Shown: positions 650 to 41,945 of the stretch, piece after piece
How positions within the stretch are numbered: position 1 is the first letter of the stretch
How the letters are laid out: every line of letters starts with the position of its first letter
Assembly (NCBI RefSeq): GCF_963675165.1
Contig: NC_087377.1
Location: 16,720,518-16,784,517 of the forward strand
Reading direction: 5' to 3'
Length of the DNA stretch: 64,000 bases
Source of the DNA: Halichondria panicea
Taxonomy: Eukaryota > Porifera > Demospongiae > Suberitida > Halichondriidae
The notes under the pieces: generated by a model
What the model was told of the DNA's origin: nothing
Database searches by the model: none
Seen by the model: only the letters and a program-made list of their open reading frames with translations
Position numbers and translations under genes: made by a program

Positions 650-3605
650 ATGGCCACTCAAGCAACCCCCGACCATTCTCCAGAGTACCTGTCCTTTCAA
701 GAGAACTTTGAAGCATTGGTGTCCACCTTCAAAGCTCAAACTGCTGCATATGCTGATAGCCTCTTCTCCAATGGCTACATACCAGATGAAGTTCTCGAGT
801 ACTCTAGACTGAATGGAGTCATGGATTCCGATAAGTCTCGAAAGATTTTAGATACCATCATCCATCGAATTAAGCTCAATCCCAGTGTATTCCATGGCTT
901 TATTGCTGCCATCGCTGGCCCTTCTACTGACGATGTTGTCAAGAAGCTGCACGATAGTTACGAACGTCACAAGACTGCGACCAGCCGTGTTGAACAGCCA
1001 CCACTCTCTCCACCCCCACACCAGCAACATCCACCAGAGGCTCCGACGTCCTTCAGCTTCCCACACCTCGACACCTCTAGCCTTGATGAAGATATTAGAA
1101 TTGAATTGGAGGATCGGCTCATACGTGATACAAGGAAAATGATAATTAGTTTCACTGCTTTTACTCTAATTATCCAAAGATCATTTGAAAACCAACGAAT
1201 CCCTTTGGAAAGGATTAAAGATCTTATTCTCAGCCTTGACGCTTTCAACGACGGGATTGGAGTCAAAGTACTTGATCCAGAAGATAAGCAAGAAATCAAA
1301 AATGCCAAAAATTTGCCTGAAGTGTTCATGACTCTACGTGATTACATCTCCTTCTTCAATTATGAGATAGTGCAGTACCTCATCGAGCTGCTGGGATCAC
1401 CAGACGACCAAGCACAACTACATGAGCATTGTTCTGCACTTGATCAGTTCTGTCATCGAAATGTGTTTGAAGTTCCGGCCGAATCTTTCTCTTCAAAATC
1501 TCGTATGAAAACGGCCAAAGTATTTGTTCTCAAATGCACGGAGCGAGTAGCCACACTGGAGTATGTGAAAAGGCTGACTTCGAGAATTGCTGAAGCACTT
1601 GGTCTACAAAGAGCAGCGCTACAACTCCGTTCAGTCAAACAAGGCTGCTTGGAGCTTCACTTTCTCGTCACTGTAGCTGTTGCCAAGCGTATCTACCCAG
1701 TGTCCCCTACTGTACAGGCTGCTCTCAGTGTGATGGGGGTCAAAGTTCTCACCTGTGGAAGTACGGATGAGGTGGAGACATTTCTGCTGGAACAGTAAGT
1801 TCTTGAAGAGGTACTATATACCCATACTCCATACTCCTGGCATAATATAATAATTATACCGTAAGTTAAGAAGCATGGGCCGTATATAGTTACAGTAATA
1901 TAATATTCGTATTATTATAATAATTACAAGTATGTACCTGTCACGTACAGGGATCTGAGCAAACTCAAACTAGAAGGTATTGAGGAGATGTCTAAAGACA
2001 CAAGAATAAGCACGACAACCTTCACTCCAATGAAGGTCACTAAAGGTGAGTGTTTGGCCAACTTGATATCCTATAATCTCTCTTAAATTAGATACAAGAG
2101 GCTCGGACACATTGGAGGCAACAAAGAGGGAGTCAAAGGACACTCAACCAGTCAAGAAGGTGCGTACATGTAGTGTGATAATGAGATTCCCACAGCAACA
2201 ATAGTATTGTACCTTAACATGCATGGATGCTATCTCATGTGTTAAGCCGTAACTACACATCCGTTTGAGTGTTCCTATAATTATGTACTTCCTTTAGCGG
2301 AAATTGTTGTTTGTTCTCATTCTGTTGTAGAATTTTCCACTATAATGATATTCACGTCTGTGTTCAAAGATATCTACCAACGTTCCCCTGTACAGGCACA
2401 CAGGGAACAGATCGAGCACAAAGATGCTGAGCTGGTCAGGAGAGACGCCATCATTCAACAGCAGAGACAGGTGAGACAAAATGCACCATTATATTATTGC
2501 AGAGCGATAGTAGAAGCTTTGATCTCTTATAATCGTACTGTACATTCTATTAGACTGGTGGGCGTGGCCTCTTAAGCTAATTAGAGAAAGTGATTTAGTG
2601 TGCATGCAATTATTGCTACAAGTAACACTCGCTTGTTAGTAGACACTATCCTAATTACACTCATTCGTTATTCAGGGTCCCCCTCCCAGAGAGTTGATAC
2701 CTCCACTCACTCTGAAATGGAGAAGAGGAAAAGACATGCCAATCAAGATGGATGGCTCGGTACAGAGTGTTGTTATCGGTGACACGGTGTATGTTGGTGG
2801 AGGTATTGCAGACAATGATCGTGACATGTGTACAGTGATGAAGCTCGAGCAAGATCAATGGGCCAAACTACCAGAGTACACTGCCAAGTGGTTTGCTATG
2901 ACATCACTCGCTAATCGACTAGTGCTGGTGGGAGGAACTGATCCGAGAAATAACAAATGCACTAATCAACTAGCACTGTTGGAGTCAGGGGAATGGACTC
3001 ACCCGTACCCACCAATGAACATTGCTCGTTCTTCCTCAACGGCTCTCTCCTTCAACAACGACATCATTGCAGCTGGTGGGTTTGATGATAAAGGATATAC
3101 CTCCTCTGTGGAGGTGTTGGACGTGGCATCAAGAAGATGGTACATTGCTCAGTCACTACCTAACCCACGATCAGAACTGAAATCGACTCTCATAGGAAAC
3201 ACCCTCTACCTAATGGGAGGTTGGGATATAAATGTGACAGTAACCAAGACAGTGTACCATGTTGACCTCAATGAACTCATTGCAAAAGCCCGATCCAACC
3301 TGGACACACCCACTCTCTGGCAGACCTTACGGGAAGTACCACTCAGGCTGTCAGCTCCTCTCAGTATTGGGGGATCACTATTAGCCGTTGGTGGAGTAAA
3401 CAACAGAGGCAACCCAAGTTCATCGATCCACCTCTACCAGCCTGACACCAGGAGGTGGGTGAAAGTAGGAGACCTGCCTACTGCACGATACAGCTGCACA
3501 TGCTCAGTACTTCTTAGTGGAGAGGTCATTGTAGCCGGAGGACAGACAAGTGCATATATTAATTATATTCCAACTGTTGATTTCTTCTCTATAAGTGCTA
3601 ATTAG
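650..3605 (+). CDS. CARD-like / kelch-repeat protein, 5 exons, about 770 aa
   Basis: Exons 650-1794, 1951-2045, 2092-2159, 2396-2470 and 2676-3605 join in phase with GT-AG introns to give 770 residues. Residues about 14-108 look like a CARD-type death fold (helical, ending HGFIAAIAGPSTDDVVKKLH). Residues about 150-380 are a second globular region with FVLKCTERVATLEYVK and LQLRSVKQGCLELHF, a type I recall from sponge receptor-like proteins. Exon 4 encodes a charged coiled-coil segment (HKDAELVRRDAIIQQQRQ). Exon 5 is a six-blade kelch propeller with Gly-Gly motifs VYVGGG, LVLVGG, IIAAGG, LYLMGG, LLAVGG and VIVAGG. No signal peptide or membrane segment is seen. A cytosolic adaptor or sensor role is inferred. 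A near-identical copy lies at 58901-61854. Confidence 0.85.
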
Positions 3606-21236: not shown

Positions 21237-21854
21237 CAGATTGTTCTAAGTTTCTGAGCTATCACTTACGTTTTGTGTTCACCTAGTAGATATATATCTA
21301 GATCTATACTCATTTATTTACTCATTTATTTACTCAATAACAGCTCAATGTTCACTTTGTAGTAAATGTCATGGTGTTTAGTTATTATGCTTCGGTGCGC
21401 ATGCGCAAGTGAGGTATACGGTAGTGTGTCTGTGTGTCTGTGTGTGTGTAGACTGTTTCAGCTACTCAAGGATCAATGAAGTGCAAGTAAGAGTTTCTAT
21501 AGGCTGCTAGTCATGTTTTCTTGGCTTGGTATTTGTGGATTTGCAAAATAAAGCTTCGTTCTCGAGTTATGCCTAGTTTTGCTTACCATTGCTGCCTTTT
21601 CAGAAGAGTCCGTAGCAAAACTTGTTCACCGAGTGTTGCTACTCTACTTAGTGATATAATGCATGATTTGAGAGCACATGAATTGTGTGTGTTCTGTGGT
21701 AAGGGATGACGTAAGTAAAATAACTTATACCCTGAGCTGAGCTGTGGCCGGGCCATGCCTTGCCTCGAGACCAGGCCTGTTGATCTTTACGTATATACCT
21801 CCATAGATAGTATCTATGATACCTCTCAGCTTTTGGAGTGATAGTTATTGCGCG
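21237..21854. other. Spacer without recognisable genes
   Basis: Contains ACTCATTTATTT duplications, a GTGTGTCTGTGTGTC microsatellite near 21430 and one 62-codon ORF without splice context or relatives. I see no supported feature. Confidence 0.5.
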
Positions 21855-21931
21855 TGTACAGTGTAATCTCGCGGACCCTTGGAGACCCTGGTATATTATA
21901 ACCTCTGGCTTGCGAGACTATGTACAGTGTA
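21855..21931. mobile_element. 55-bp mini-insertion flanked by 11-bp direct repeats
   Basis: TGTACAGTGTA occurs at 21855-21865 and 21921-21931. The 55 bases between begin ATCTCGCGGACC and end GGCTTGCGAGACTA, an imperfect inverted repeat that resembles the GTCTCGCGAGC end of the 17680 element. Probably a minimal member of the same family. Confidence 0.55.
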
Positions 21932-22099
21932 TGTTATAATTTTGGCGGGTAATTATTTTTCAAGGGTAGACTCTATAATGAACAGGCACTTTTTGCGGTT
22001 GATATTTTCGCGGGTTGGTGCAATTTATGAAATGCACATTGACAAAACATAATTATTAGCACTCGAAGATTATACCCGCCATATATACATGTACCATAT

Positions 22100-23480
22100 A
22101 GGTAGATATGCATGTGTGTGTGTGTGTGTGTGTCCACAAAGTTCCTTACATCAAGGTAAATTCTCACAAATGGCAGACTGTGAGTTGAGTGCATGCGGTT
22201 ATATGGGTTGCATGTATATGTGCATTCTTTACGTAGAGATAAATTTCTCACACATGCAGCGTCTGTTGTGTATACATGCATGTATATACATGTCCTAAAA
22301 GTTCCTTACATGAGTATAAATTCCTTACAATGTGTGCCAATCACACATACATGCATGCATGCATGTATGTGTGCATGTGTACATAATTATGTATATATTT
22401 ATATATATATATATGTCCCTGACAGTTCCTTACATAAGGATAAATTGCTTACAAATATAATTATAGTTGTAATTTCGTTGTATATGCATGCATGCATGTG
22501 TATGTCCTGAAAGTTCCTTACAATAAGGAGAAATTCCTTACAAGTATTGTGTATCACATGTGCATGTATGTATGCATGGGTGTGCATCACATGTGTATGC
22601 CTGAAAGTTCCTTACATAAGGAGAAATTCCTTACAAATAAATTATGGTGTCCAATTTTATTGTGTATCACATGTGGGTGTGCATCACATGTGTGTATGCC
22701 TGAGAGTTCCTTATACATAAGGAGAAATTCCTTACAAATAAAGTGTCCAATTTTATTGTGTATCACATGTGCATGGGTGTGCATCACATGTGTGTATGCC
22801 TGAACGTTCCTTACATAAGGAGAAATTCCTTACAAATAAATTATGGTGTCCAATTTTATTGTGTATCACATGTGGGTGTGCATCACATGTGTGCATGTAT
22901 GCCTGAGAGTTCCTTATACATAAGGAGAAATTCCTTACAAATAAATTATAGTGCCCAATTTATTGTATATCACATGTGGGTGCATGTGCATCACATGTGT
23001 GTATGCCTGAAAGTTCCTTACATAAGGAGAAATTCCTTACAATTAAATGATGGTGTCCAATTTTATTGTGTATCACATGTGGGTGTGCATCACATGTGTG
23101 TATGCCTGAAAGTTCCTTACATAAGGAGAAATTCCTTACAAATAAATTATGGTGTCCAATTTTATTGTGTATCACATGTGGGTGTGCATCACATGTGTGT
23201 ATGCCTGAAAGTTCCTTACATAAGGAGAAATTCCTTACAAATAAATTATGGTGTCCAATTTTATTGTGTATCACATGTGGGTGTGCATCACATGTGCATG
23301 TGTATGCCTGAAAGTTCCTTACATAAGGAGAAATTCCTTACAAATAAAATATTAGTGTCCGCATTGTGTATAATTATACATGCATGCATGCATGTGCATG
23401 GGTGTGCATGCATCACATGTGTGTATATGTTCTGAAAGTTCCTTACATAAAGATAAATTCCTTACAATTATGGTGGGCCG
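22100..23480. repeat. About 100-bp minisatellite, around 12 units
   Basis: Units contain AGTTCCTTACATAAGGAG, AAATTCCTTACAAATAAA, ATTGTGTATCACATGTG and GCATCACATGTGTGTATGCC. The central units (about 22600-23350) are nearly identical, while edge units are diverged, as expected from unequal exchange or slippage. TTCCTTA/TAAGGA inside each unit can pair. Long open frames across it are periodicity artefacts. Confidence 0.9.
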
Positions 23481-24003
23481 TTTGTTTCAAAATTCAAATG
23501 TTATATTTTCATTCAGATTACAATACATTCATTCAAGATGCATATATACAGTATTCATTCAAGACCTGCAATTGTCATTCAAGATTTTAATGCATTCAAG
23601 TCGACAATAATTATTCAAGATATGCATGCATGCATGCATATACAGTCAGATGTCCTTTGCTTAATGCTCAAAACTCGGAGGTCAGCAACGAACCCTGACC
23701 TCTTGTTAATTTTCGTCAATCAATGTCATGTTTCTGGTTTGGGAATTACCACTACTGAGGGAGGGAGTTGATTATTGTGAACCCCATTTCCTGTTAATTA
23801 CAACTACACCATGCAATAAAACCACAAAGTGTGGCTATTAGTAAAGTCATCTGAAATTATGCATGTTTATGCATCCATCAAAATCTTGAATCTTGAATGA
23901 ATAATCTTGAATGCTCTTCAATGAAAATTGCACATCTTGAATGAATGTATTGTGATCTGAATGAAAATGTAACATTTAAATTTTGAAACAAACGGCCCAC
24001 CAT
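23470..24003. mobile_element. Inverted-repeat element, ATGGTGGGCCG ends
   Basis: The left arm ATGGTGGGCCGTTTGTTTCA and the complementary right arm ending at 24003 extend for about 90 bases each (including TTTTCATTCAGATTACAATA). The interior has repeated ATTCAAGA motifs and no coding region. Confidence 0.75.
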
Positions 24004-24462
24004 ATACAAATTGGTTTAATTGGATGCAGGAGCGCAAAGAAATATTATACAGTTGTTCAACTGACTGACATGCATGCACTAAGAAGAGAATTTTACTGGT
24101 ATACTTATACGTTATGTGCATGCATGTGTATATATAATTATGCATGCATGTATAAATTATACTAACCCTAACCCTCACCCTATAAATTATACATGTTATT
24201 TATTGATACACGACAATAAAATTATATTTTATTAGCACTACATGTATATAATAATACACTGACTTTGCTATTATTCATTACGATCAATCGATAATCGCAT
24301 GAATAAAGAATATATAATTATGATGTGATTAAATGATTTACTGCCAGAAAAAAGAGTTGAAATCAACATAATGCATGCACATGCGCATGCTGAAACGCAA
24401 AACAGATTAATATATATAATTATATATAGTCAGTCGTATTTTGAATTATTAAGTTTCATTAG
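24004..24462. other. AT-rich spacer with a short telomere-like tract
   Basis: AACCCTAACCCTCACCC at about 24165-24180 resembles two interstitial TTAGGG repeats. The remainder is TATATAAT- and ATGCATGC-rich. No gene is seen. Confidence 0.5.
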
Positions 24463-27400
24463 TCAATGCTTGAAAGAACATTTCCATTTCCTTTTGAGTA
24501 CGTACCCTTTTATACATTTCTTATGAAACCACCTTGGACAAAAGTCACACCCCACCCACTTGGCTTCTTGACCATCTATAAATGGTTCTTTACATACATG
24601 GCACCTCGACTCGTCAATCTTAGTGCGTTTTCTTTTTGACTTGGGCTGGTGATCATCCTCCAAGGCTGTAATTGTTAAACACCCTTAATTGAAGTTTGTT
24701 TGCAGCTTGTACCAAGGGATCTGTAGGTGGTCGTACACGCTTCCTTCTTGCTGACCGTTTTGCTCTGGTTTGCTTCACAATGAGTTTGGACTGGGTGTCA
24801 GAATCTAGAGTATCCTCTACCCGGAGAGGATTTGTTTGATCAACAATGAGTTTGGTGGACTGGGCGTCAGAATCTAGAGGACTCGTTTGCTTAACAACAA
24901 TGAGTTTGGACTGGGCATCAGAATCTAGAGTATCCTTTACCCGGAGAGGACTCGTTTGCTCAACAATGAGTTTGGACTGGGCGTCAGAATCTAGAGTATC
25001 CTTTACCCGGAGAGGACTCGTTTGCTCAACAATGAGTTTGGACTGGGCGTCAGAATCTAGAGTATCCTTTACCCGGAGAGGACTCGTTTGCTCAACAATG
25101 AGTTTGGACTGGGCGTCACAATCTAGAGTATCCTTTACCCGGAGAGGACTCGTTTGCTCAACAATGAGTTTGGACTGGACGTCAGAATCTAGAGTATCTT
25201 CTACCCGGAGAGAACTTGCTTGCTCATCATTAATGGTGAATGAGTTGCCTGCTTCTGGTCGGCGAGGCGTATGATGGTGTACGTCCTGTTTGCGAATAAT
25301 AATTATGTGCAGGAGTGTCGGGTGGAGTAAGGACGACAGAGTCCAACTCTTGTTCTGTATATGGAGACACATTTTTTTGATTACATATAATGCTTATACA
25401 TGAGTCATTTTAAAATTAAAAAAGACGCACATGCATGCATGCATAAACATTCACCCCTTGCGTTAAGCTTCATCGCACAGCGGCAAAACAACTTTTACCG
25501 TAATTACATATAATTATAATCTTGAATCTATATACAGCATATGCAACGACAGTGTTTTTGTCGCCTTCTACAACTTTCAAGTAAGTAGTAACTCATTAGC
25601 AGTTCAAGCAGTCCATGAAAGTGTATAATAATAGCTCGCTCACACGCTGCACACATGTAAAGTGTGTATTGTTATACTTAAGTCACCACTGATTGTCATT
25701 TTATTATCTATATTTGTACAATACATATCTCGTGCACGTCAGGTGACAGTGTCAGCCACATGTTATAATTATAAAAAGTGCATGAAGTGAATACAAATCT
25801 AAATAGCAAGCCAGTACGTAGACAGCTATACTATAATTATGGAGATCTATTTAGGCCATTACACAGGGTAATAATAATGCTAATGCATATAGATCTGCAT
25901 CATGCATGTATTATAATTTACCTTCTACTTTGGCCTCCACGATGTCAAAAAATTCCTGGGGTACATCTGAATGGGGAGCGATCATGCAGGAATGGCCTAC
26001 ACCATTCTCTCGTGTGATTTTTGTTCCTTCATTCTTCTCGGCCAGAAAATACTGGGTGGCAGTTGTCTTCACATTCGCACGTCTCCTAAGCTTTTTCCTA
26101 ATCCCACTTTCCTCTTCGTGCGGTATTTCCTTAAGGTCTAAGCCTTTCAAGAATTGCTTGAGTAGTACGGCAACTCCAATTTGCTTTCTTCGTTCGTCAC
26201 CAATAAAATAAGAGCATTTGGGGTTGATCACTCTCAGAATCTATCAAATGTGTTTTTTCAATATGATAAATATATAATAATAATTATACGTATACTGCGG
26301 CATAAAGTTCACGGTCATGAATTGACGTCATGCATGCATGATTATAATACCTCAGAAATGGAAGAAGCTCTGGCATATGCCACCAAGTAATTTCCAAGGT
26401 TACTGGTGACTGAACTCTGAAATTTCTTTATTCCCGGCACAAGTATATCGTCAAACCAAGAAATCAGACTATCTCCATCAACTAGCTATGTCACTCATCC
26501 CGGATATCTGCGCATACATGAATGCATGTGTAAAGTGTATATATCATGCTGCATGCATGTATATAATTATATAGCAAAAAGTAGAAGTGCATGATTTTGC
26601 AGCGTATGCATATACAGGCAATCATGATTATGGGCTGATTCCAAAAATGAAACAAACCTCCAGAGCAGAAGCCAGAAGAAGACTGTATTCAATCACTGCT
26701 CTGGAGTCAAGGTTGGGTAACATCTCCTTAATGTGTGCTTGAATATTCTTGAGCTTTGTGGGCTGCATACAAGCCACATTGTACCCAATCCTCACAACGG
26801 CTGGTCCGGCTGCTGGTGCCAATGAGAAAATCTCATTTATTGCCTCTGTCGACTGGAGATTGTACTCAAGGTGATGAGGAAACATTACAATTCTTCCTCT
26901 GCATACCACCCTATATAGAGTGTGGGGGAGCACGGGTGTAGCAACTTAAGGCAATAATTATTATAGGAAGGCTCTGCATAGCAAGGCGCGCTGACTACAT
27001 AATTATAACCATGCAATAGTTAGCTTTTATTAAATGCCGATTAGCAACTACGTACGTAAACTGTATAATACTATAGGTTTATAAGATTATATACCTCTTG
27101 TCCATTGAAGCTAGAGCATCCAAAATGTGCACATTGGCTGTTACTAGAGGAGACACACGACAAAAATTAAGAGCCACTTGACAGTGCATTATCAGTTGTA
27201 TTACCACCGAAGACTGTCAGCAGGATCTTCATAACTTGCTCTGCCGTGTCAGGGTCGTCAAAACACCACGGCATACCACCATGAAGCAACTTCCGTAAGA
27301 GAGCATCACTGATGGAAGAGAAACGAGCATGTATGACTCCTAGTGCAGCTAGACAGAGCTCCACACTCTTGGTTTTACCACGGTTTACTTCTCCCACAAC

Positions 27401-28282
27401 CATTGTGACACCAAAACTCCCGTAAGTTGCTTGTAGCTTCTCATAAAACAACGAGGAAGCCACAGAGCCTATAAAAAAGGTAATGGATGACATGCAGTCA
27501 CATGCGTGCAGTTATAGGATGGACATTAATATTAACTAACCTAACACAAAGACAGCAGAGTAGAAATTGCTGAGTCAGCTCACGCAGGCCACCTAACAGT
27601 ACATCCAATGGCCTATCAGGAGTAGGGATGGTAGGGAGTGTCTTGTAAAACTGTACCCCGCTTGGAACTACTCCTTCTTTCTTGATTACACTCTCGACCC
27701 ATACGTAAGTGCATTCTCGAAGTGGTATGATCTCACCGTCCTCTTTCACATGGACATAAGGACTGAGAACAATAATCTCACTATCAGGCTGCCTTCCTAG
27801 TGCAACAATTGCTTTTCTGATTCTTCGAGAATAGTCAGGGTCACTAAAATTATATTTCATTAGATATAATGTACATGGATAAATCTCACTTTTCGAAGTC
27901 CACAAGCTTGTTCCAGAAGATGTCAGTGAGCTGACTGCTTTTAAGCTTAGACATTAACAATTTCTCGGGAACAGCACTGCCCAACTCTTTAGCAATGTTA
28001 AAGCCTTTTTGGTGGGTTTTATGCCAGGGAAGAAAACAAACCCTATAAAACAGTAAAACACAATTCATAGTAATTTAATAGTCACCATGCATGCAATCAC
28101 TAACCCCTTGTCGTCTGTTCCAGAGGCCTTCACCTCCACAATGAAGCCACTGTAATCTGTGTTGTCATCACTTTCAAAAGGTGACGAAACTCTGCAAACG
28201 AACTTGAAAGTAAAGTTTGTCAGGGGAGTAAATATGTCGCCTGCTTTCAGGTAGCCAATGGCATTGTTTTGCTCTGTGAATT
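24463..28282 (-). pseudogene. P-loop NTPase with C-terminal PHD finger (unit A)
   Basis: Exons (5' to 3') 28282-28105, 28042-27890, 27843-27541, 27468-27205, 27143-27095, 26910-26658, 26485-26351, 26240-25922, 25354-24713 and 24665-24463. Most junctions match in phase. The upstream start exon was not found. Walker A is VVGEVNRGKTKS, and a Walker B-like CFDDPDT follows. Later comes CRGRIVMF, an arginine-containing segment after the core. The linker exon has 22-residue repeats and basic KSKRKRTK. The PHD finger has CHVC, WVGCDFC, PRWFHKKC and WKC but lacks the final cysteine. A one-base shift lies near 25260-25350. It is head-to-head with the plus-strand gene at 29046 and homologous exon by exon with 33098-37753. 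The NTPase family was not identified with certainty; a helicase- or primase-like ATPase is a guess. Confidence 0.7.
24775..25230 (-). repeat. 66-bp in-frame coding repeat in the PHD-gene linker
   Basis: About seven units of 66 bases encode variants of SKLIVEQTSPLRVKDTLDS followed by DAQ. Two units are shortened. Substitutions are mostly in-frame. It forms an acidic/basic low-complexity arm between the ATPase and PHD parts; the third copy at 20241 has an unrelated repeat (ETPPSSDTPHVVE) in the same place. Confidence 0.85.
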
Positions 28283-29045
28283 CTGCACAAAAACAGTACA
28301 TAATTATATGGTTTTACCAAGGAAATTACATGTAATTGTCACATGCAATTCCTGCTAATATACATGTTTTGGAAAAATATTTTCACAAAATAGATCTAAT
28401 ATCTCGGCAAAAGGCTGTCTGTTCAGAGACAGGCATGCATGCAAGGGATAATGATGCCAGTATACAATCTAAAAGTCATTCCAAATGGCTGTACATTCAT
28501 GCAGTTGACTAACCTGGTGATGAGTGCTCCATGCTTGCCAGAGGTCAACTTGCACTTGTTTCTTGCTTGTCTGAGGCACACTGACGCTAGATAGCAGCTA
28601 CTATTGACAGCAAAGACATGATAGACTTCTCTCTTAGATTTACCATGCAGGTCTCCGGTATGTGGCAAGTCAGCGCGCCATACACCTCAGTCCACCAATG
28701 ATAATGCTCATATTTGACCGCAATGACGAAATCAGTGCGCCTTACAGTACTGGAACCATACACTGGAAGCAGAGTAGAGGACACAAACCACCAGTAACTG
28801 GACACCTTGTCCACCAATGATAATGCTTATACTTTACCACAATGGCGCGCCTTACAGTAGGTTATTGTACTGGAATAGAATATTCTACACAACTAGATCT
28901 GGACACCACCTTGACACACCTCACCCACAAAAATCACAATTAATGCTGATTCATCTTGCAACTGCTAGAATATAGGCTATATTTCATGCCAAGGTTTAGC
29001 TAATCAAAGTTTATAGCATACACAGTCACTTATAGCTACAGAGAT
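28283..29045. promoter_or_regulatory. Divergent intergenic region of unit A
   Basis: This 760-bp gap separates the 5' ends of the two divergent genes. It contains a duplicated segment (CCACCAATGATAATGCT...GCGCCTTACAGTA) at about 28690-28755 and 28810-28865. No TATA motif stands out. It may hold a bidirectional promoter and the unseen first exon of the minus-strand gene. Confidence 0.35.
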
Positions 29046-32014
29046 ATGGATGCTAAGAAGAAGAGAAAACTGCCAAAGAATTTAACTGAAGCATCAAAAC
29101 AGTTATGTCATCAAGCAAGATTACTGAAGCTTGTGAATTGTTCAAGACTATTGAGCTGCCTGCATCTTCAAAAGACATATCTGAGCATGATATCGCTACG
29201 TACCTGGTGGGACGATATGGTATCAACAAGATAGCACGGATATGTTCCGTGCTTTCTGGATTTCCGAAGACACTAAACACCTTCCATGTATCCAAGTACA
29301 TAGCAAAAGTCACAGATATGGATGATGCACACTTGCTAGCCTCTTTCATTACGATTCATTGTCCACACCTAATAGCCACATTCACATCTAACCATCCATC
29401 ACCAACTCTGTTAGCTCCTCCAGTGTGTAACTGCTTTGAATGCCAACGTCAATTGACTTCAAATCATGACTGTGAAGTAAGTAATAAAATATGCACTTTG
29501 GTTTTATAAACTTCTCCAGGTCACCCTTTACACATTATCTGGTGTGAAGAAATTGCCGAAAGTCACTCTTATAGGTGTCAGCCATGTGGTTTGACTTATA
29601 ACTATGCGATGTGGGGGAGAAAACAAACCTCTGGCTTTCAATACTATCAGAGCCAGCAAAATTTAATTGAAGTTTATGACACCGTTTTCTTCACTCGGCC
29701 TCTCCTAGAATTTCAGTGCTCCCTTGCGTAAGTACATTATGTATAATGCACTGTATATATAATTATATATAGCGCGGAATTTTGGGTTGACTGCTTACCG
29801 GAATCACTCCCATGCAGGTTACGCTTTCTATCTTTGCACCTAACTGCTATATTATACCTCAAAAACAGTGAAAATTAAGCCCCTCGGCTATGTATATGGT
29901 ATTATTATATTATAACAGTCATTGCAATCATTTGCTCCTATCAAGTTTATCACTCCGCAGGAACCACTCATGGGTTTCCTTCCAGGGTTTTAGTGAAACA
30001 TACAATGACACTCATTCTCTCAACAAGGACCAATGTTTTATGCTATAATTATAATTATATTAATGTATATAAATTCAATTATATACACATGGCTTGCATC
30101 CGCATTAATTTTACTTCTTGTTAATTCAGCCATGACAGAAAAGATTGCAGCAGATGCATTCTACAATGGAGAGATTGAGAATGAAATTAGGTTTCTTGTA
30201 CTAGCAACCAATCCTACTTTTTCCCTAAGTCATTTCACCTTCAAACGAGACAGTGACAGAGAGGAAACAATGGAAATGATTGAAACAATTTGCTCATGCA
30301 GTATATATACCCTCACTGTGAAACTGACTGCACTGCTGTTTGCAAGAAAAGAGGAAAGTTTTTCTACTCATAATAATAATAATATATACATTGCTATTAT
30401 CATTATAATATAGGTTGTGGCACTCTGTGGGTTACTGACGGATTTGGAAACTTGTTTTTCCACATTGCGTGCACAGACTGAAGGTAAATGCACAAAAATT
30501 ATCATCCAAGTCCTGCAACATACATTCAGTATTATTATTATTGTCATCGTTCACAGTATGTTGTGGACCGAATTCCATCAATATCTATGCCAGATGTGTG
30601 CACCTATCCGCCGGTGCCTGGAAAAGCTTTTTGTCAGGATCACTGCCAGTATTTGGAGTCACAGGTACCACCAGTACCAACAGATCTCAGGAGTTTTTTG
30701 AAGCACTGCAAAGTTCAAAATGGTGAAATAATTACAATAATTATACACCATTATACTGAATAGTCTATATGCATGATGTGCTACAAAATAATATTACTGC
30801 ATGTATATATACACTGGAACTTGTATACTATAATTATTAATCCCGTATCACATCCGGTCCAGTAATATTGCTGATATACTTTGTTGAGTATATAATTATA
30901 ATTGCTATGTGAACTTTATCCTCAGTCTGAGAGAAAGCAGCTGGTTAATTCAGCATGCTGCCAATAACTGTATTCGAATAACGGCGGCAGCTGAACATTT
31001 TTTAGAGATAATCTTAAAAGATTGTTACTTAAGCTATATATTAGCACTCTTTAACCATGCATGCATGTACTCACTAATTATGTGCACCCTGATAATTATA
31101 GGAGATGATGTTTCGGTTAACTTTGATGAAGAGAAAACAATAGACACGGTTCTACAAAACACTACTTCTGAAATTGAAATAGGAAAATCTGCAGCTATTT
31201 CTCAAGGTATATAATATTTAATGTGTATAGTGTGCGCATAATTATACTATAATCAGGAACCCATGATCTACTAGCAACAAACCCATCACTGTTGTCAAAG
31301 AGCCTTCATGTTGCCAAACCGATGATAGAGTCTACAGAATGTCGCAAAATTACTGGAAAAGCAAAACGTCTCCGGAGGTGGTCGAGGGGACACCAATTTG
31401 TTGTGAGAGCAGGAGGCCATATAGAAGCTTGGCAACCATTATACAAGTGAGAACACGCATGCAGTATAATGTACTGCACACATAATTATGTGGATGCGTT
31501 ATTTTATATAATGATATACGTGCAGGTCGGAATCACCAATGCAAGTTTTTTTCATCCTAATCAAGTGGCTTCAAACGTTGAGTCAACATGCAGACAAACT
31601 ACCACTTTCTGCCAACTGCTATGTTACAGTACCTAGCGTATGACAACATGTGCAATGTGAATAGACTGAAGTTTGCAAGAGCAGCCTTACCATTACTGCC
31701 CCCAATGGACAAGGTATGGCTCAATATCGAGAAGATAATTGACACGTTCCACCTTCCCAATCATGTAAACCCTGAATGCCATACGCTATATATATTCTCC
31801 TCAAAGGCTCAAAGAAAAGTGCCCTGACGCAAACACACAGGCTGGCGAGCAGACATTTGTCTGGCTTGGTAGATTTAAGCATATTCTGTGTGCAATGAAT
31901 AAGCAGCACCATCTATTTTACCTGCACAGAATGGTTCGAAGGAGGAATGCATACACAGTGAAATGCTATAAAGCTGGAAAAAACCCATTCTGCCAAGATC
32001 CAAACTCTAATTGA
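29046..32014 (+). pseudogene. CxC5/CxC6-KDZ-like transposase-type gene (unit A)
   Basis: Exons about 29046-29476, 29520-29727, 29961-30033, 30130-30356, 30414-30483, 30557-30722, 31102-31206, 31257-31446 and 31526-32014. The start is basic (MDAKKKRKLPK). Later: VTLYTLSGVKK...YRCQPCGLTYNY and SLNHSWVSF-type HSWVSFQGFSETY (CxC5-like), then CTYPPVPGKAFCQDHC (CxC6-like), then WSRGHQFVVRAGGHIE. The final part has AYDNMCNVN, FHLPNHVNPECH and AGEQTFVWLGRFKHILCAM, giving D, H and E residues in the spacing of KDZ-type DDE cores. Frameshifts occur in exon 1, exon 2, exon 4 and twice in the last exon, one at a TATATAT expansion (31787-31797). Recognition of the family is from memory. Confidence 0.65.
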
Positions 32015-32558
32015 CTCATTCTCCTGCTGAAATGCTATACTTGCATGCATACCTATGTATTCCCTTTAACAATCTCTATAGTTCCGTGTAGCAATCATGC
32101 AAATGTTCATGCAATGTTTGATGATCAGTGATTCGCTGGTCACTAGTCATGCATGCAATTGGAAGGGATGTTGCCACAATGGAACGAGCTCCTCTGATGG
32201 CTTGAGTGAAAATGAGAGGCAGAATCTTAGCCATCTCTGCCAATTCATTGCCGAGATGTAGGATTGCCCCATTTGTGTACAAATATTATTTGTCGATGTT
32301 GCAGCAGGGCCAAGGACATCACGAGTGGGGTGAAGGATTTTGTGGATTGGACTTTCATACATTCTGCTCAATAGCCCATCCGCAGCGATGTTTTGGAGGA
32401 CTCCTTATGTGACGTTTGCATGTGGTCCCAGGAGGTGTTCTCCGGAGATTGGCTGTAGGTGTGGTTCTGATAGGACGTTACGTTTCTGATCTCGTTGTGA
32501 AGTATATAACAATGGGAAACTTCCCTTGGGGCGTGTTGACCATCTATGGTTTGACGAC
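32015..32558. other. Spacer, possibly remnant minus-strand coding sequence
   Basis: The minus-strand reading has open stretches such as GAILHLGNELAEMAKILPL and QAIRGARSIVATSLP near 32090-32290. They look protein-like but I could not tie them to a family or to splice sites. Could be a decayed retroelement. Confidence 0.3.
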
Positions 32559-32750
32559 GGTTTGATAGAGAACTCAGTGTTAAATGAGAAGTGCGAGAGT
32601 CGGGCCGGCTGGGTAGGTACGTTGAAACCGAATTCTGACACGGGGAGAGCAGTCGGTTTGATAGAGAATTCAGTGTTAACTGAGAAGTGCGAGAGTCGGG
32701 CCGGCAGGGTAGGTACGTTGAAACCGAATTCTGACACAGGGAGAGCAGTC
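32559..32750. repeat. Two 96-bp tandem copies
   Basis: Direct copies begin GGTTTGATAGAGAA at 32559 and 32655 and share GTGCGAGAGTCGGGCCGGC and ACGTTGAAACCGAATTCTGA. Both strands stay open across the repeat because 96 is divisible by 3. GC content is higher than the surroundings. Confidence 0.85.
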
Positions 32751-33097
32751 AGGCAGCTTGAGGCACCTTTCTCCTAGGCTGAGTGTTTGTTTTGGGCTGG
32801 TATAGTCATTAGTGTGTACGTACCTAGCTCCAGTTTGTGTGTAATGAAAATTTTTTAACAACTGGCCTTACCTAAACAGACCACACCCTTAAGCCATCTC
32901 AAATCATGCATCAAATGCAAGAGGCAACGTTGGAGTCATTGTCGCACGTGATCCCGTTTCCAATCCCTGTTAACTACTCAATCTATGCACAAATCAAACA
33001 TATTATTATGCATGTAATTATGACCATAACTGGGTAAATAGATAATAATAGTATACCGTACAGATAGTTTTGGCATTATTCGAAAGTTTGGCATTAT

Positions 33098-36000
33098 TCA
33101 GTTAATCACGGATAACTTTCCAGCTGGTGGATGACAGCTTGGACATATCCAAACTTGGCTCTCGAAAGGCAGCTCCTTCAAACCTACACAGGTGTAGTGA
33201 TACCATCGCCAGCATGAGTCAGCCTCACACCCGACCCACATGCGTTTTCCCTTCTTCGTAAATTTCCCTCCACACTGCTGGCAGTGTTTCTCGTCTTCTG
33301 TATATATACAGTAGCACAAAATATTAATGGGCATGGTGACGTGTGCATGAATAAAATGTTGCTGTTGAGAAAACAAATTACTGTGTGCATGACAGTGTAT
33401 GCATGCATGTGTGCTGCATGATTTTTACTTTCACGCTTGAAAGCAGAGGTACGTTTGCAAAAGCCATTTTTTAGATGCTGCTGTCTTGACCAAACCACAT
33501 GATGGGTGGAGTTGGCTGAAAAAACGCTCTATGAAAAATGCACCTCTCTACAAATGCATCTCTCTACAAAATTCACCTCTCTAAAAAACGCACCTCTGTA
33601 CAAAACGTCTCTCTGAAAAATGTACCTCTCCAAAAATTGCACCACCTATTTTTTAAAACGCACCTCATAAAAAGCAGCACCAAAACGCACTAATGCATGC
33701 TGGTGGTATAATCATGCATGCATCCTCACATAATTTATATGGACTACCGTATAGCGCGAAATTTTCGAGGGGCTTAATTTTCGCGGATTTCGTGGGTTAG
33801 AATCCTACACGAAAATTAAGTCCACAAAAATTGAATTACCTGCTATAGCATGCATAGATTTAAAGGCGTGGCTTCCGGTAAGCAGTCATTCCGCGAACAT
33901 TGTGCAACGAAATAGCTTTTAGAGGCTAATCCACGAAATATAAGTGCCTCGAAAATTTCGCGCTATACGGTATGCCGGAAAAGTTACCTGGTATTTTCTT
34001 GAGTTTGATGACCGAGTCAACCACTTCAATAGCTGTGATCTGTTGTTCTGCATGCATAATTTATAATAATGCATTCGAGCTCAACATTGACATATATATA
34101 CTATAATTATTATAGTCCTGTCACCCTATAATGTACATAGTATGCATGTATGTACAGGTATTATTATAATAATTATAGGGACAGTGTCGCATGCAGTTTG
34201 GCCGAAATAGCAAGGTGGCTGCTTTAACAGCCTGCATGCATGCCAATTAATTCGTGCCTAGCGAAACAAAAGGTATAATTATGTAGAGAGGTGACCGTAA
34301 TTCAAAGAGCCGAGAGTCTATACCGTATATAGCGCGAAACACATTCTACAAAACGTCCACAAAATGGAACCTCCATTAAAAAATTATTGCTGTTATTTTG
34401 CACAATCGTGAAAACCCATAATTTATATAGATGCATGCATGCATGTATAATTATAGCTGGTCCCGGCCAACCTATCTCACTTACCAGGGGAGACTTTTTG
34501 CTGCAATTCAAGCATTGGGGGATCCTGATGTGCCCTTTGAGTAATGGATGAAATGGAGGTCTTTTTATCTGCATCATGACGACTGCCCTCAAAATGTTTT
34601 TGTAGCTTTCTCGGTTTAATCTTGTGGTAGATTGGAGAAAATGATTGCTTGAGAGCAGCCACAGAATGTTTGTTAATTGGAGTGCTATAGTAAAAACTCC
34701 TCTTGGTGTTGGCAGAGGTCTCTCTTTTCTCTTCTTTTGAGGAGTAAGTATAGTGAGGAATGCTCAATAACGTCGGACCGTGTAGTAAACTCAACTTCAT
34801 CATTGTCCGATGTAATTGGTGTGATCTGTTGAGAGGTGTGTATAATTCTGCCTCAGAACTTGAAGGTGATTCATTCAAAGAAAGTGAGAGGTGTGGTGTC
34901 GTGCATCGCTTCTTCTTGGGAGACCTACACAACTTGGCAGGAGAATACAATTTTTTCTTCAATGTAACTGCAGCTGTTTGCCTCACATTCCTGCTCTGGT
35001 GAGCCTCACGTGCAGGAGTTTGTTGAGAGGAGGATGCAGGAATTTGTTGAGAGGAGGATGCAGGAGTTTGTTTCAGTTCAGAGGAGGCTATAATTATTAT
35101 ATATATAAATGATGACTGCCATGAATTAATTATTTTTGAACATACGGCTTTTAGGGGCGGGGGGATATTGCCTCATTAATTGAATAAAGAGTTATAGCAT
35201 TTTCCTACATAACCCAATAATTAATTTACCTTTCTCTAGTTTTGCTACTGTGTCGTTGCTGAGAGACGATTTTTGTATCACAAAACTCCGCACGTACACG
35301 TTGTTGGGTGATTTTCTTCCTTTTATTCCCGTCTGCACGTAGGGAAGGTTCACTCCAGGTTTGAGGAATAGCTGTGGAACACTTGGTTTGATACTGCCCC
35401 TGAACAAATTCGTAAGAGCACTCTTAAATGAGGATGACAGGGACTTTCCCATAGATTCATTGTGCTTCCTCAACTGCCCAACGTTGATTGCAAACTGATG
35501 AGAGCTTATATTCCGTACGAAAGTCAACACCTGCATGCATGCAATGCATATACATATAAATTGCATATAATAATTAGTATAAAACTGTTTACAGTATACT
35601 CTTGCATGTTATATATAGTTGTTGTTAACTCACAGTGCTGGAAGGCTGCTGTGCAACTGATGAACACAGAACACGCTGGATGTCTTCTTTTGTTAAGTCT
35701 ACTTGGGCCTCCATAGGTTCCAGCTGATACTTGGTAATGATTGGAACCATTGTGTTTTCGAAGTACTTCCATATCATTTCTTCAGCCTCAGGTTTCAGGA
35801 CGTTTGCAACAGACAGTATCTGCATGTATTATTATAATTATAGCAAACCAACTATACACTGTGTATTGTGGGGGTCTATATATACATGAATTATAAGCTT
35901 ATATAATTATATACGCATTTTCACCTTGAAAGTTGCTCCAAGCAACCAAGAGTAAGAAACGAGAAGGCGATGACAGGTGTTATCTGGCATTAGATGCTCA

Positions 36001-37753
36001 ACACGGGTAACAATGTGTTTGAAAAAGTTGTCTGCCTCTGGTGATTTGAAGAATTTCCCCATAGACATTACAACACCTACAGCTTTCCCAGCTTCCTTTG
36101 CCATGATTCGTTTCAACTTTCTGTCAGCATCAACACGTCTTGCTGCTTCAATATGTCCACTTTCCTCAAAAGGAACGAGAACAGCCCTAGTGATGTATCT
36201 ATATAATTATAATTAAGACCTCGTATTATTATAGCCGAAATGTTTGAGGCACTTAAATGTCCTTTATCTATATATATATATATGAAAACTGGGAAAATCA
36301 TAATACCTTGGATCCATGCTTGATAAAGCTTGCAGGCAGGTAGTATTCATTGATGTGAGAAACGTAGTTTTCGGGGCATCAAAAGAAGTAGTAGTGGCTC
36401 TGGTACCTCTATCAAAATGAAAGAGCAGCTTCTCCGATACTTCAGATGGTTGAGACGGGTCATCAATAATCATGCCCAATGATGTGAGACTGCCAAACTT
36501 GATAGCTTTAACATCTGTGATAGATTTCACCTTGCTGACAGTATCCATTCCAACCAGGGATAAAGCTGCTTCAGCACTCCGTGTTTTGCCTAGCGAGACG
36601 TTCCCAACAGCAATAGCAGCTGGCACTTGAATTCCAATATCCTGCAGGAGAGAATAGTGGACTGCAAGGACTTTTGCTCCGATCATGAGAGTGGCTGCTG
36701 GAATGTTATGTTGGTACACATTCTCCAAAGCTTCCAACAATGAATGGAATTATGATGGATCAAGAGATGCCGGGACAGTCGATGCCTCTTTTGAGGTAGG
36801 AAGACTATGTTTATGTAGTACACTGCCTGAAACGTAGTCCCCGAGCCAAATGAATGGACTAGTTTTTGGATCTACTAGATCCCTATCGGCATTCATGTGC
36901 ACTTGACCGTTGAACACCCAAAGTTCAGAATGTGGTTGCAGACCTACAATCGTTGCCACTTGCTTCGTGTAATGGTGTGGATCTTCAGACTCCGACTTGA
37001 GGCAATAGAAATCCTCCAGCTTTTTCATGAGGTAAGCCTCGAGCTGTATATATAATTATGAGCTAATATTAATTATATAGATTGATAGCTTAATCAATAG
37101 CTACCATATATATATAGATAAAATCCCTCTAAAAAATCCTGCCAAATCATCAGCAAGACGTTACAATCTTATAACCTTTGTGGTAAGGATCGTGATGTAT
37201 ACATATTAACGCAATCTCATAATGTTATCGCAAAATCGCAAAAATTATCATGCATGCTTATATTTTAATATCGGGATTTGCATGCATGTGTGTAATATAT
37301 AGTTATACTTACATTGTACATCAAGACACCTAAATATATATCTTTACCTGTGTGTTTGATGCATGAGTGGTGATTGAAGGATTGTGCACAGAAAATCTTA
37401 GTGAGTCAATGAGAGATCGTCTGCCACCTTTGGTCCAATCATTGGGAAAATATCCTTCTCTATAATAATTATTATAGTGTAATGATGAATATGCTCTATA
37501 TATATAAATGTGGATGGTGACATCTATTATCAGTAACAACGTACCCGAGAGTAGTTCCATCACTGAAGGTGACTGTGCATATATATCTAGACAACGGTCC
37601 ATCCTCATTCTGAACTCCATACGAAAAGTCAATCTTGAAGTTACTCAATGCCTTGAACGATGAGTCCTTGTACACACCAAATCTGTTATTTTTTTCAAAG
37701 ATATCAATGAAATAGTCAACAGTTTGACTTTCACTGTCTGATTCAGAATCCAT
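33098..37753 (-). CDS. P-loop NTPase with C-terminal PHD finger (unit B), 9 exons, one in-frame stop
   Basis: Exons (5' to 3') 37753-37545, 37459-37348, 37043-36307, 36198-35925, 35819-35634, 35530-35230, 35087-34485, 34047-33988 and 33297-33098. Every junction is GT-AG and every phase agrees, giving 894 codons. One TAA at 36750-36752 interrupts exon 3. The N-terminus is acidic (MDSESDSESQ). Walker A is AVGNVSLGKTRS; Walker B is GMIIDDPS. DPRYITRAVLVPFEES follows as a likely arginine-finger segment. The linker is Ser/Lys rich, with repeated PASSSQQ. The PHD finger is complete: CQQC, WVGCEADSC, WRWYH, YTC, WICPSC. A DNA- or chromatin-directed ATPase is inferred; PHD fingers read histone H3 tails. 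It is head-to-head with 38086-40852. The good state of the gene apart from one stop suggests recent activity. Confidence 0.75.
33515..33680. repeat. Degenerate short tandem repeat (GCACCTCTCTACAAAA)
   Basis: Eight or so variants of ACCTCTCTACAAAA(C/T)GC with a period near 19 lie in the intron between the last two exons of the unit B NTPase-PHD gene. Confidence 0.75.
33747..33970. mobile_element. MITE, CCGTATAGCGCGAAATTTTC ends, TA target
   Basis: The left end CCGTATAGCGCGAAATTTTC and the complementary right end are flanked by TA (33745-33746, 33971-33972). The interior has TTTTCGCGGATTTCG-like repeats. Partial relatives occur at 29770 and 34322. It sits in an intron of the unit B NTPase-PHD gene. 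Confidence 0.8.
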
Positions 37754-38085
37754 GGTGGGCCCTATAAAAAATATATCAAGAACTTGATGAAAATTAACTT
37801 GGCTTGCTAAACAGAGTAGACTTGCAGAGGGATTGGCTTGGATTTACAATGTCCTAATAGGTCTAAGTAAGTCTCTATATATATGCCTGCCACATGTTAT
37901 GGAGGAGCTGCTACAGTGATCTCTATAGTGATTTCTATAGCTGCCATGCACACAAAGTGTAATAAACTTTCTGCAGTGCACCCTCTCTGCACCACTACCG
38001 TCGACCTTGACTGTACAGTATGTAGAGTGATGATCCACTAGTCTGTGCATGTATAGATACACTATAAATACATATTGATTCTGAA
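37754..38085. promoter_or_regulatory. Divergent intergenic region of unit B
   Basis: Only 332 bases separate the start codons of the NTPase-PHD gene (37753, minus) and its partner (38086, plus), so one short stretch must contain both promoters. TATATATA at 37876-37883 is the only TATA-like motif. Compare the 760-bp gap of unit A. Confidence 0.4.
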
Positions 38086-40852
38086 ATGGCTGCCAGTAAG
38101 CGTCCCAGGTATGACCCAAGTGTTGCAGAAGCCACTGCTAAAGTGAAGGTGTCCCAGGCAAAACAAATGGAGAGTCTTACCACTGAGATTGTTCCAGCTA
38201 TTGTCACTGCTGCCAAACAGTTACTCGGTAAAGGAAGTAAAGTGTCCACCGAAACGTTTTGGTTGGCACCTAAAGTTGCACAGATACTTCTTGTTGCTGA
38301 CATCGGACTCCAGAAGTGCATGCAACTGATGTATGTTACGAAGAAGGTTCCTGTGAATGTGCCTAACAGGACTAAGGTTGTGTGCTCACTGATGGATCCT
38401 AGCTACTGCATCCATGAAGACAGATGCAGAGTGTACATAGACATTATTGAAACTTGTGTGGATGCACCTGTGTTTGACAACACACATACTAGTGACAGCA
38501 CTCTGAACCACATTCCCAGGTATGTTATAGGGATTGCGTGCATGCATGTTTATAATTAGCCCGTTCCCAGGCCGAGTTTTCATATCAAATTGGCATCGCA
38601 CTACTATATAATTATGGCAATGAGTTGTTTCCACCGGTACAACTTTAATTTGCCGGTTTTAAATTTCCAAAATAGTTATATTTAATTGGTATATCGTTGA
38701 TGCATATAATTATTAGTTATAATTATTGTATACTCATGTATGCATGCTGACCCAAATCCAAATATGTATGTGCAGGTTTCTCACTCCTCCCGTTAATAGC
38801 TGCATTAATGACAGCTGTCGTATAAGTGGGCATGCAGACTCACTCAACAGTTGTCACCGTATATTCTCTATCTGGTCCTGAAATTGGTGTCAAGCATGCA
38901 CTAAAATGTCGAAATTGCAACTACATATATCACTATTCAGCGTATGGTCGGAAAACAAGTACCGGTGAAAAGTTGTACAATCAACCTAGAGATTTGGTTG
39001 AGGTTTCGGATGTGATCTATTGCGAGAGGGAATTGTACGAACTTTTATGCAGCTTGAGGTATATAAGTTATATATGTGTATATTATAACCACACACAGCT
39101 TACATTGCTGGGTATCTTTTTCAGGATTCAGCGAATCATACACAGAATTCTCAATGAAATCGTGTAAGCAACAAAATGTATATGCAAGCTTGGATGAAAA
39201 ACAGAAAAGGTATATTTATACTATACTTTATAGTCTTGTCTGCTGCATGCATGCATGATCTGCTGCCTGCATGCTGTGTATTTTTATTTACAAAATGCAT
39301 ATTATGATGTTTTCATATACTGCATGTTCTGTCATTGAATTTATATAATTATAGGTTCACCTCATGAATTGACACGCAAAGCAGTGTCACAAATGTTCTA
39401 CAATGGAGAGCTTGAGGATGAAGCAAGAAATGGGCACCTCCGTCCTGATGAAATGATAGTCCACTTGAACAGTGACAAGCTGGAATACATGCAATACATT
39501 GTCGAAAAGCAATGCAGCAGTATGTACCAGCATGTCCCTAGAAAAGGGTGCATTGAACGAGGTATGCATGCATAAGAAAATGTTGTTCAATTGACCAGTT
39601 GCATAATTATAACAGGTTGTGGCAAGTGTTGGTCCATTGATGGCAACTGGAAACTTTGTTTCCCTCACTGCATGTTTCCTGTCTTGTGTAAAGTCCCTAG
39701 TATGCCACTGCTGAACTTTCCAAGTGTATAATAATAATATGCGTTAAGCAGCCCAGAGCAAACAGTGGTTTCTGCATTCAACATCACTCGAAAGCGGAAT
39801 CGCTCAGCTATCCAACAGATGTAAGAGGCTTCCTTGGTTACTGCATGTGGAGCGAAGAAATCAGCTGGACAGGTATATATAGATTGAAGTCCTATAATTA
39901 TTATATAATTATATACATGCATGCATGGATATATACATGCATGCATGGATGTATATATGCACGTGCTCTATTTATTATGCCCGTGCTCTATTTATTATGC
40001 ATTGACATGCATATATATAATACTCTTTTTAACTCCATATTTGCAGGAGTACAAGACTTTGCTCGAGAGTTCCCTTCTGTTGCTGTAAGCATCTCTATAG
40101 TTGTGAAGAAGAGTGTGATTCAGTGCAAAAAATATCTAGGGGAGCGAAAAAAGATTCAGCTGTGGAGTAGAGGACATGTATTTCTTGTGCGCCCCTGCGG
40201 ACATATTGAGTTTTGGAGAACAATCTATCGGTAAGTTCATGCTGCATTGCATATAATTATATAATTATACGCATGCTGTTGTGCATGATGTTATAAATGC
40301 ATGCAGGTCTGAATCACCCTCTCAAGTATATTCTTGATTGTGATTGTCTGGCTCTATCAGACTCTGAAGGACGTACCTCCAGACAAATGGGGAGAGATTA
40401 TACTTCACTGAAGTTGCTTATGACAATATGTGCCAGCTTGATAGTCTCCGTGCAGCAAAACAGCCCCTTGCACTGCCAAAACCATATGACCTAATGTGGC
40501 AGAAAATCACCAAGGTATGTATATTATTATTATAATCATGACATCATTACATATATACATGCATGCATGCAGGTTATTGATGATTTGCACATTAAAAATC
40601 ATGTACGAACAGACTGTCACAGACAACATACCATCGTCCCAAGGTTCAAGAATTGAACCCTCTATACTTAACCTCATGACAGCAGAGCAAACATTTGCTT
40701 GGATTTCCAGATACAAGCGTATTCTGTGTAGCATGAACAAACTTCATCATCAGTTTTTCTTACACAGAATTGTATACAGGAGAAACAGATATACTGAGTG
40801 GTGCATTGACACTGGTAGAAAGGTTCTTCTCCCTGTGAACGTTTCTAAGTAG
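38086..40852 (+). pseudogene. CxC5/CxC6-KDZ-like transposase-type gene (unit B)
   Basis: Exons 38086-38519, 38776-39058, 39099-39209, 39355-39561, 39616-39872, 40047-40230, 40307-40514 and 40573-40852. Exon 1 is fully open (MAASKRPRYDPSVAEA...TFWLAPKVAQIL). Exon 2 gives VVTVYSLSGPE, KHALKCRNCNYIYHY and VEVSDVIYCEREL (CxC5-like). Exon 5 has GCGKCWSIDGNWKLCFPHCM and SGFCIQHHSK...YPTDVRGF (CxC6-like). The tail has AYDNMCQLD, DDLHIKNHVRTDCH and TAEQTFAWISRYKRILCSM. Frames shift in exons 2, 5 (an inserted TAATAATAATA near 39728), 7 and 8, and the exon 3/4 phase does not match. In KDZ transposases the D/H/E residues form the catalytic core; here E is preserved in TAEQ. Probably inactive. Confidence 0.65.
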
Positions 40853-41394
40853 ATATAATTAATTATTGCACACGGTAATTATGCCGGATATAATAATAAA
40901 TGCAAGCAGTGATAATTGATGATGTTGACACCACAGTAAAAAATGCGTGCATGACTGAAAGGATGCATGCATGCATGGTATAGCTATATTATATACATAT
41001 CTAATTATGTGTATGACTATAATTATATAAATGAGAGTGCATGCATGCATGCATACATGTGTGCAATTTACCGAGTGCATATATGATGTATCACAACATC
41101 CATGCACTTTATAATTCATTATTATAAGTCACATTATTTTGAACACTATAATTATATAGCATGCATGCATGTATATTAAATAGCTATATATAATTATAAT
41201 TATAGTCTCCACATGCATGCAGTCAGGTATTATAGTTCAGAGGGTCCTCCACAGCTTCTATATATATATACATGCCGTCATGCATGCATGTTCTCTCTGC
41301 ATGCAGTGACTGCATGCAGTGACTGCATGCATGGGAAAGAAATTATTAACATAATAATTCAGCATAATAATAATTATTATAATTATGCAACAGA
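40853..41394. other. ATGCATGC- and TATAATTA-rich spacer
   Basis: Repeated ATGCATGCATGC, TATAATTAT and GCATGCAGTGACTGCATGCA palindromes. No coding feature is supported. Confidence 0.6.
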
Positions 41395-41945
41395 ACGTAT
41401 ACGTATACAGTGCAACATGCAGATGCAACGGTGCAACAGATGCAACGGTGCAACGATACAACAGATGCAACGGTGCAACAGATGCAACGGTGCAACAGAT
41501 GCAACGGTGCAACAGATGCAACGGTGCAACGATACAACAGATGCAACGGTGCAACAGATGCAACAGATGCAACAGATGCAACGGTGCAACAGATGCAACA
41601 GATGCAACAGATGCAACGATGCAACGGTGCAACAGATACAGCAGGTGCAACGGTGCAACAGATGCAACAGGTGCAACAGATGCAACAGATGCAGCAGATG
41701 CAACGATGCAACGGTGCAACAGATGCAACGGTGCAACAGATACAGCAGGTGCAACGGTGCAACAGATGCAACAGATGCAACAGATGTAATGGTGCAACAG
41801 ATGCAACAGTGCAACAGATACAGCAGGTGCAACAGATGCAACAGATGCAACGGTGCAATAGATACAGCAGGTGCAACGGTGCAACAGATCCAACGGTGCA
41901 ACAGATGCAACGGTGCAACAGATGCAGCGGTGCAACAGATGCTAT
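41395..41945. repeat. GATGCAACGGTGCAACA minisatellite
   Basis: A run of 8- and 9-base modules (GGTGCAAC, AGATGCAAC, AGATACAGC, AGGTGCAAC) assembles into 17-base and larger higher-order units. Because the modules lack stop codons, several frames on both strands stay open (for example repeated CNRCNGATDAT). These are not genes. Confidence 0.9.

Follow-up and report, generated by a model that had tools for sequence, protein, structure and literature searches.

What are two adjacent pairs of divergent genes, each joining an ATPase with a chromatin-reader finger to a transposase-like protein, in the genome of the sponge Halichondria panicea? They lie in a stretch of 64,000 nucleotides (contig NC_087377.1, positions 16,720,518 to 16,784,517 of the forward strand, assembly GCF_963675165.1), here called the window, and the original prediction had taken them for a composite mobile element or a domesticated derivative. 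Analysis of the window and of related copies showed that the two units, A and B, which have diverged from each other, each represent a family of DNA transposons of the KDZ (Kyakuja-Dileera-Zisupton) kind. In both families two proteins are encoded from a shared central region.

Two families of KDZ-kind transposons

In both units a minus-strand gene for a nucleoside triphosphatase (NTPase) with a PHD finger was located opposite a plus-strand, cysteine-rich, multi-exon gene in head-to-head orientation, and the exon-by-exon homology predicted for this two-gene cassette was confirmed despite the divergence. The three best-matching transposase exons were 37-56% identical between A and B (E 8.8e-19 to 7.8e-14), and two further ones corresponded at E 4e-7 and 1e-4. 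On the opposite strand, two NTPase exons matched at 23% and 31% identity (E 2e-5 and 3e-5), and the PHD exon was 38% identical (E 2e-4). Both units encoded the predicted ATPase, which has the two Walker motifs (A and B) and carries its PHD finger at the C terminus; the PHD exon alone scored 30.8 bits in A and 27.7 bits in B against PF00628 (cut-off 24), and the full-length predicted B protein (P0001) fell just under the cut-off at 23.0 bits. Both window copies are broken. The reading frame of the A NTPase was disrupted relative to its sister copies, the B NTPase had an in-frame TAA after 36753, and the B transposase had an in-frame stop after 39728.

Profile and copy searches covered the H. 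panicea assembly of 131 Mb in 39 contigs (labelled C1, C2 and so on); the best candidates only were scored, so all copy numbers given here are lower bounds. A B copy with open frames, referred to as intact B, was located on C13. CxC5 (PF18718, cut-off 26.9) was matched at 38.4 bits in A, 43.0 bits in window B and 58.4 bits in intact B, and the KDZ domain (PF18758, cut-off 26.6) was matched at 33.6 and 32.9 bits in cut pieces of intact B of 416 and 156 residues, respectively. These matches identify the transposase-like core of the plus-strand gene as a KDZ-type transposase, with the KDZ domain above its cut-off only in the cut pieces of intact B. The tail with spaced D, H and E residues had been expected to be KDZ-like, and so it proved in the C13 pieces; window B itself (21.9 bits), a piece of an A-type sister copy (23.8 bits) and a piece of a third type, D (20.8 bits), were below the threshold. 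No KDZ match was among those listed by the Pfam search for full-length intact B, window A or a 371-residue D piece. The candidate D and E residues aligned across the A, B and D types and were 66 residues apart in all three, the first D having been placed by eye. The expected cysteine clusters were recovered in part: CxC5 was above its cut-off in both units, but CxC6 was not among the matches listed, with E values allowed up to 1 for the transposases and up to 10 for their pieces. With the intact B transposase as query, no homologue was found at E ≤ 1e-3, and none of the 53 genome-wide KDZ profile matches, among the best candidates scored, was at an A, B or D locus.

The ends of the elements were revealed only by comparison of copies; repeat finding within the window alone gave mostly low-complexity sequence among the 25 longest pairs shown. 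Two units were present as predicted, but the span of 24463-32014 proposed for the first was too small for element A, and element B was found to be cut at both ends (Table 1). The imperfect 21-bp terminal inverted repeats (TIRs) of A matched at 18 of 21 positions, a level reached by none of 100,000 shuffles. Left ends of A were found at 12 places in the genome and right ends at 10, with both ends in eight copies. Seven of these eight were tested for target site duplications (TSDs), the C3 copy with its shortened right end being omitted, and perfect 8-bp duplications were present in two (on C9 and C8). The five tested copies without one were all on C1, including the window copy and two sharing its left flank.

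Seven B copies had two ends, one of approximately 10.2 kb (C13) and six of approximately 3.4-4.2 kb. Perfect 8-bp duplications flanked six of the seven, the exception being the C1 copy. The two ends of B matched as TIRs at 13 of 21 positions, a level reached by 143 of 100,000 shuffles. The B copy on C9 (4,164 bp) was inserted within a MULE transposase gene, and when it was removed together with one 8-bp duplication, the remainder was the exact sequence of two sister MULE elements. This exact empty site is direct evidence of B transposition. The insertion is recent because the host MULE elements were ~99% identical over the 5.1-5.6 kb compared. The six short B copies shared similar internal deletions and retained part of the transposase along with the PHD exon; five of them had perfect 8-bp duplications, and no NTPase-core match was found in any of the six in the genome search. 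Since they hold a transposase fragment only, they must be a non-autonomous family that was moved in trans. Comparison of the flanks of many copies thus revealed shared terminal repeats, 8-bp TSDs and one empty site, in agreement with the predicted mobility.

Table 1. Coordinates of elements A and B and their parts (window positions unless a contig is named).
Feature	Position	Strand	Remark
Element A, complete end to end, 11.3 kb	21653..32917		ends are where copies with different flanks stop matching
A left TIR	21653..21673	+	18/21 identical to reverse complement of right end
A right TIR	32897..32917	-	copy comparison
A left subterminal tandem array, 99-bp unit x 8.6	22497..23360		array also in sister copies L071, L072, L073, L075
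A right subterminal repeat, 96-bp unit x 2	32558..32750		
A NTPase-PHD gene, 5' limit uncertain	24463..28686	-	Walker A 27359-27400, Walker B 27248-27268, PHD 24505-24603
A KDZ-type transposase gene	29046..32014	+	CxC5 cysteines within 29426-29620
A transposase candidate catalytic residues	D 30416-30451, D 31636-31668, E 31841-31876	+	
Spacer between A and B	32918..32987		common to three duplicated places
Element B, both ends cut	32988..41942		C13 and C9 copies extend ~400 bp further left and, on the right side, past the minisatellite
B NTPase-PHD gene, approximately nine exons judged by eye	33098..37753	-	Walker A 36570-36611, Walker B 36450-36476, PHD 33182-33283
B KDZ-type transposase gene	38086..40852	+	CxC5 cysteines within 38801-38951
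B transposase candidate catalytic residues	D 39618-39653, D 40416-40448, E 40679-40714	+	
B right subterminal minisatellite, 9/17/26-bp units	41420..41942		also in C13 and C9 copies; window B stops inside it at ~41942
Six short B derivatives, 3.4-4.2 kb	C17:1670760, C9:2863719, C6:936056, C2:5212906, C6:769164, C1:8899541		

Two further features were observed inside element A. A 536-bp stretch (23469-24004) had inverted ends of 72 nt that were 96% complementary; it is probably a nested small inverted-repeat element, because it was present in the sister copies L071 and L072 yet missing from L073 and L075. A 66-bp tandem repeat (24876-25226, 5.3 units, 95% matches) was located between the NTPase and the PHD exon of the minus-strand gene and was open as repeated peptides on the minus strand.

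The NTPase and its two kinds of transposase partner

The NTPase domain had no match to a Pfam family above its curated cut-off. Its commonest weak match was DUF927 (PF06048, cut-off 22.6): with E values allowed up to 1, 20 of the 33 relatives gave a hit, with a best E of 1.9e-4 and a best score of 20.7 bits (16.4 bits in the genome scan). Both fold models of the NTPase ranked Cch first, and SaPIBov1 Rep was second in one of them; a weak profile match, not significant, also ranked Cch first. No TnsC/MuB/IstB-like fold was among the fold matches listed for these models. By fold resemblance in the models, the NTPase is an AAA+ protein of the Cch/SaPI-Rep kind (DUF927-like, MCM-like). The NCBIfam search gave two hits (E 0.13 and 0.14), and a single-sequence PDB search gave nothing. 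When the B NTPase alone was used as the query in a homologue search, one uncharacterised H. panicea protein was returned, 88% identical over 74% of the query; a profile search returned 25 proteins. Alignment A2 held all 25 of these, P0001 and seven NTPase loci, and alignment A3 was made without P0025 and the window B exon.

A diverged NTPase group (family C), 29% identical to the B NTPase, was found at seven loci, and in 7/7 the NTPase was head to head with a MULE transposase. The MULE domain (PF10551) of the family C transposase scored 45.0 bits against a cut-off of 27.6. In the one copy tested for a TSD, on contig C2, the duplication was GTACTGATA, of 9 bp (10 if the ends are shifted one base inward), and a long TIR was recognised by eye. 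Arrays of 9-bp units were present at both ends of family C in opposite orientation. Downstream on the transposase strand, in a frame other than that of the preceding open reading frame (ORF), there was a PHD-like cysteine/histidine pattern, with scores below the cut-off for both PF00628 (20.1 bits, cut-off 24) and Znf_SCAND3 (24.5 bits, cut-off 27). We assumed that this finger is spliced into the transposase. The PHD finger is therefore apparently carried on the transposase side in family C and on the NTPase in A and B.

The original prediction asked whether the two genes are always adjacent and divergent or also occur independently, and a census of this genome gave a mixed result. A KDZ or MULE transposase was present within 10 kb at 22 of the 31 NTPase loci, and none was detected at the other nine. 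The 22 pairs comprised 10 divergent MULE, nine divergent KDZ, two same-strand KDZ and one convergent KDZ arrangement, the last being a B-type NTPase inside an A+B tandem. Because 10 of the 22 partners were MULE transposases, the NTPase is not bound to KDZ. In the other direction, 13/26 CxC5/KDZ-type loci had no NTPase in reach (five of those 13 being short B derivatives), and the same was true of 4/14 MULE loci. For this census a number of neighbouring exon matches were dropped before merging, the window A NTPase was added by hand, and the copy at C1:17150392 contributed no A NTPase, since the searches had not recovered it. For the short B derivative on C9, the only NTPase within reach was that of the enclosing family C element.

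Other arrangements were also observed. In family D (C7:4143975-4149482 and C1:9048640-9054155) a CxC5/KDZ-type transposase and an NTPase were on the same strand, not head to head. At locus L057 (C10:4194381-4197701) an NTPase relative was located just downstream, on the same strand, of an ORF that by eye resembled a RecQ-type helicase; this may be a fusion or yet another kind of element. At locus L055 an ORF of 180 residues (3059-3598, plus strand) was upstream of, and divergent from, the NTPase relative at C1:5241770; it is perhaps a third type of transposase.

A possible role for the NTPase in transposition

We favor, with a probability of roughly two in three, a two-protein KDZ element in which the Cch/MCM-like NTPase provides the element with a helicase or DNA remodeller of its own during transposition. 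The KDZ-type transposase, with its candidate D, D, E core and CxC5 zinc cluster, would recognise the short TIRs and join the element to the target with an 8-bp stagger. The NTPase would be loaded onto the element, possibly at its subterminal tandem arrays (units of 99 bp in A, of 9/17/26 bp in B and of 9 bp in C). By unwinding or remodelling DNA it may assist either in taking apart the complex of transposase and DNA or in copying or repairing the element while it transposes. The PHD finger, on whichever partner it is carried, may read histones and would anchor the complex to chromatin. According to PMC7581432, related helicases bind origins having short repeats; as a parallel for the subterminal arrays this is suggestive only. 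A wider idea is that such elements form a class of two-component animal transposons on the SCC/SaPI plan, shared by two DDE superfamilies, with a self-loading MCM/Cch-like helicase that engages iteron-like subterminal repeats, replication-coupled transposition and a PHD finger, shuttled between the partners, as a tie to chromatin. We regard this wider idea as speculative and rather improbable.

In the bacterial elements Tn7, Mu and IS21, a DDE transposase works with an AAA+ partner (TnsC, MuB and IstB, respectively). The main rival explanation takes this precedent as its model: the NTPase would be a target selector or transposase regulator that forms ATP-dependent assemblies on the target, with the PHD finger picking the chromatin and no unwinding involved. 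An AAA+ fold beside DDE transposases of two kinds fits this, and a PHD finger would obviously be suited to reading the target. However, the top fold and profile matches, among those listed, were replicative-type helicases (Cch, SaPI Rep and MCM) and not TnsC or MuB, and we consider a regulator of this sort possible but unlikely. It is much less probable that the NTPase is a host or foreign passenger gene with no part in transposition. Six of the seven two-ended B copies did move without an NTPase-core match, but their transposase is also partial and they were moved in trans; moreover, five families (A, B, C, F and G) kept the NTPase in the same divergent layout, beside transposases of two kinds.

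Tandems of A+B were found at three places, which might suggest a composite moving as one, but all three were on C1 (the window, C1:17150-17170k and C1:15660-15679k). The same A-B junction was present at the three places and lay within longer collinear stretches of 97.6-98.7% identity. Since this junction was common to longer duplicated stretches and B lacked both ends, the most likely history of the tandem is a single origin followed by segmental duplication. Element A had two ends of its own, and single copies of A and of B, with separate TSDs, were present on other contigs. The composite element was therefore rejected as highly improbable. Domestication of the pair as host genes maintained by selection, for which only the host-like look of the multi-exon genes speaks, was likewise rejected as extremely improbable, given copies dispersed over several contigs, 8-bp TSDs, the exact empty site and the broken frames in both window copies.

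Relation to known elements and significance

Cut-and-paste transposition in eukaryotes is generally considered to require little more than a transposase. Elements A and B share with KDZ transposons the KDZ domain, the short TIRs and CxC5, which Pfam describes as KDZ-associated. Their 8-bp TSD is also that reported for Zisupton in PMC12730594. The same paper describes TET/JBP dioxygenases carried by fungal DNA transposons in association with KDZ transposases, an accessory gene different from the Cch-like NTPase with PHD finger that stands head to head with the transposase in A and B. Family C resembles Rehavkus, as PMC6446971 presents it, in its MULE transposase, PHD-like finger, minisatellites near both ends and 9-bp TSD (one copy). 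Rehavkus is described there with one ORF, from arthropods and annelids, whereas family C has a second ORF, the NTPase, in head-to-head orientation. Also listed there is a MULE group from Filozoa whose second ORF is of unknown nature.

The fold matches link the NTPase to Cch of SCC elements, ranked first in both models, and to SaPIBov1 Rep, ranked second in one, and Cch was also the first-ranked, though not significant, profile match; these DUF927 proteins are likewise borne on mobile elements. By contrast, the sponge NTPase was below the DUF927 cut-off, has an added PHD finger, and is partnered in an animal with a DDE transposase rather than with site-specific recombinases. The Tn7, Mu and IS21 systems share the combination of a DDE transposase and an AAA+ partner; they are bacterial, however, and their AAA+ proteins belong to another group and are without a PHD finger. 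AcademH, as cited in PMC10045372, is a further DNA transposon of eukaryotes with a helicase among its products, but its transposase is of another superfamily. Among the titles and abstract openings listed in the literature searches, none mentioned a Cch-like NTPase encoded by a KDZ or MULE element.

That a helicase-like partner stands in the same divergent layout beside transposases of both the KDZ and the MULE kind suggests that animal DDE transposition has a second function that recurs. The NTPase is a candidate for the identity of an unknown second ORF reported in MULE-type elements. The sponge has recently active copies, with target duplications that are exact and one empty site, which provide material for experiments.

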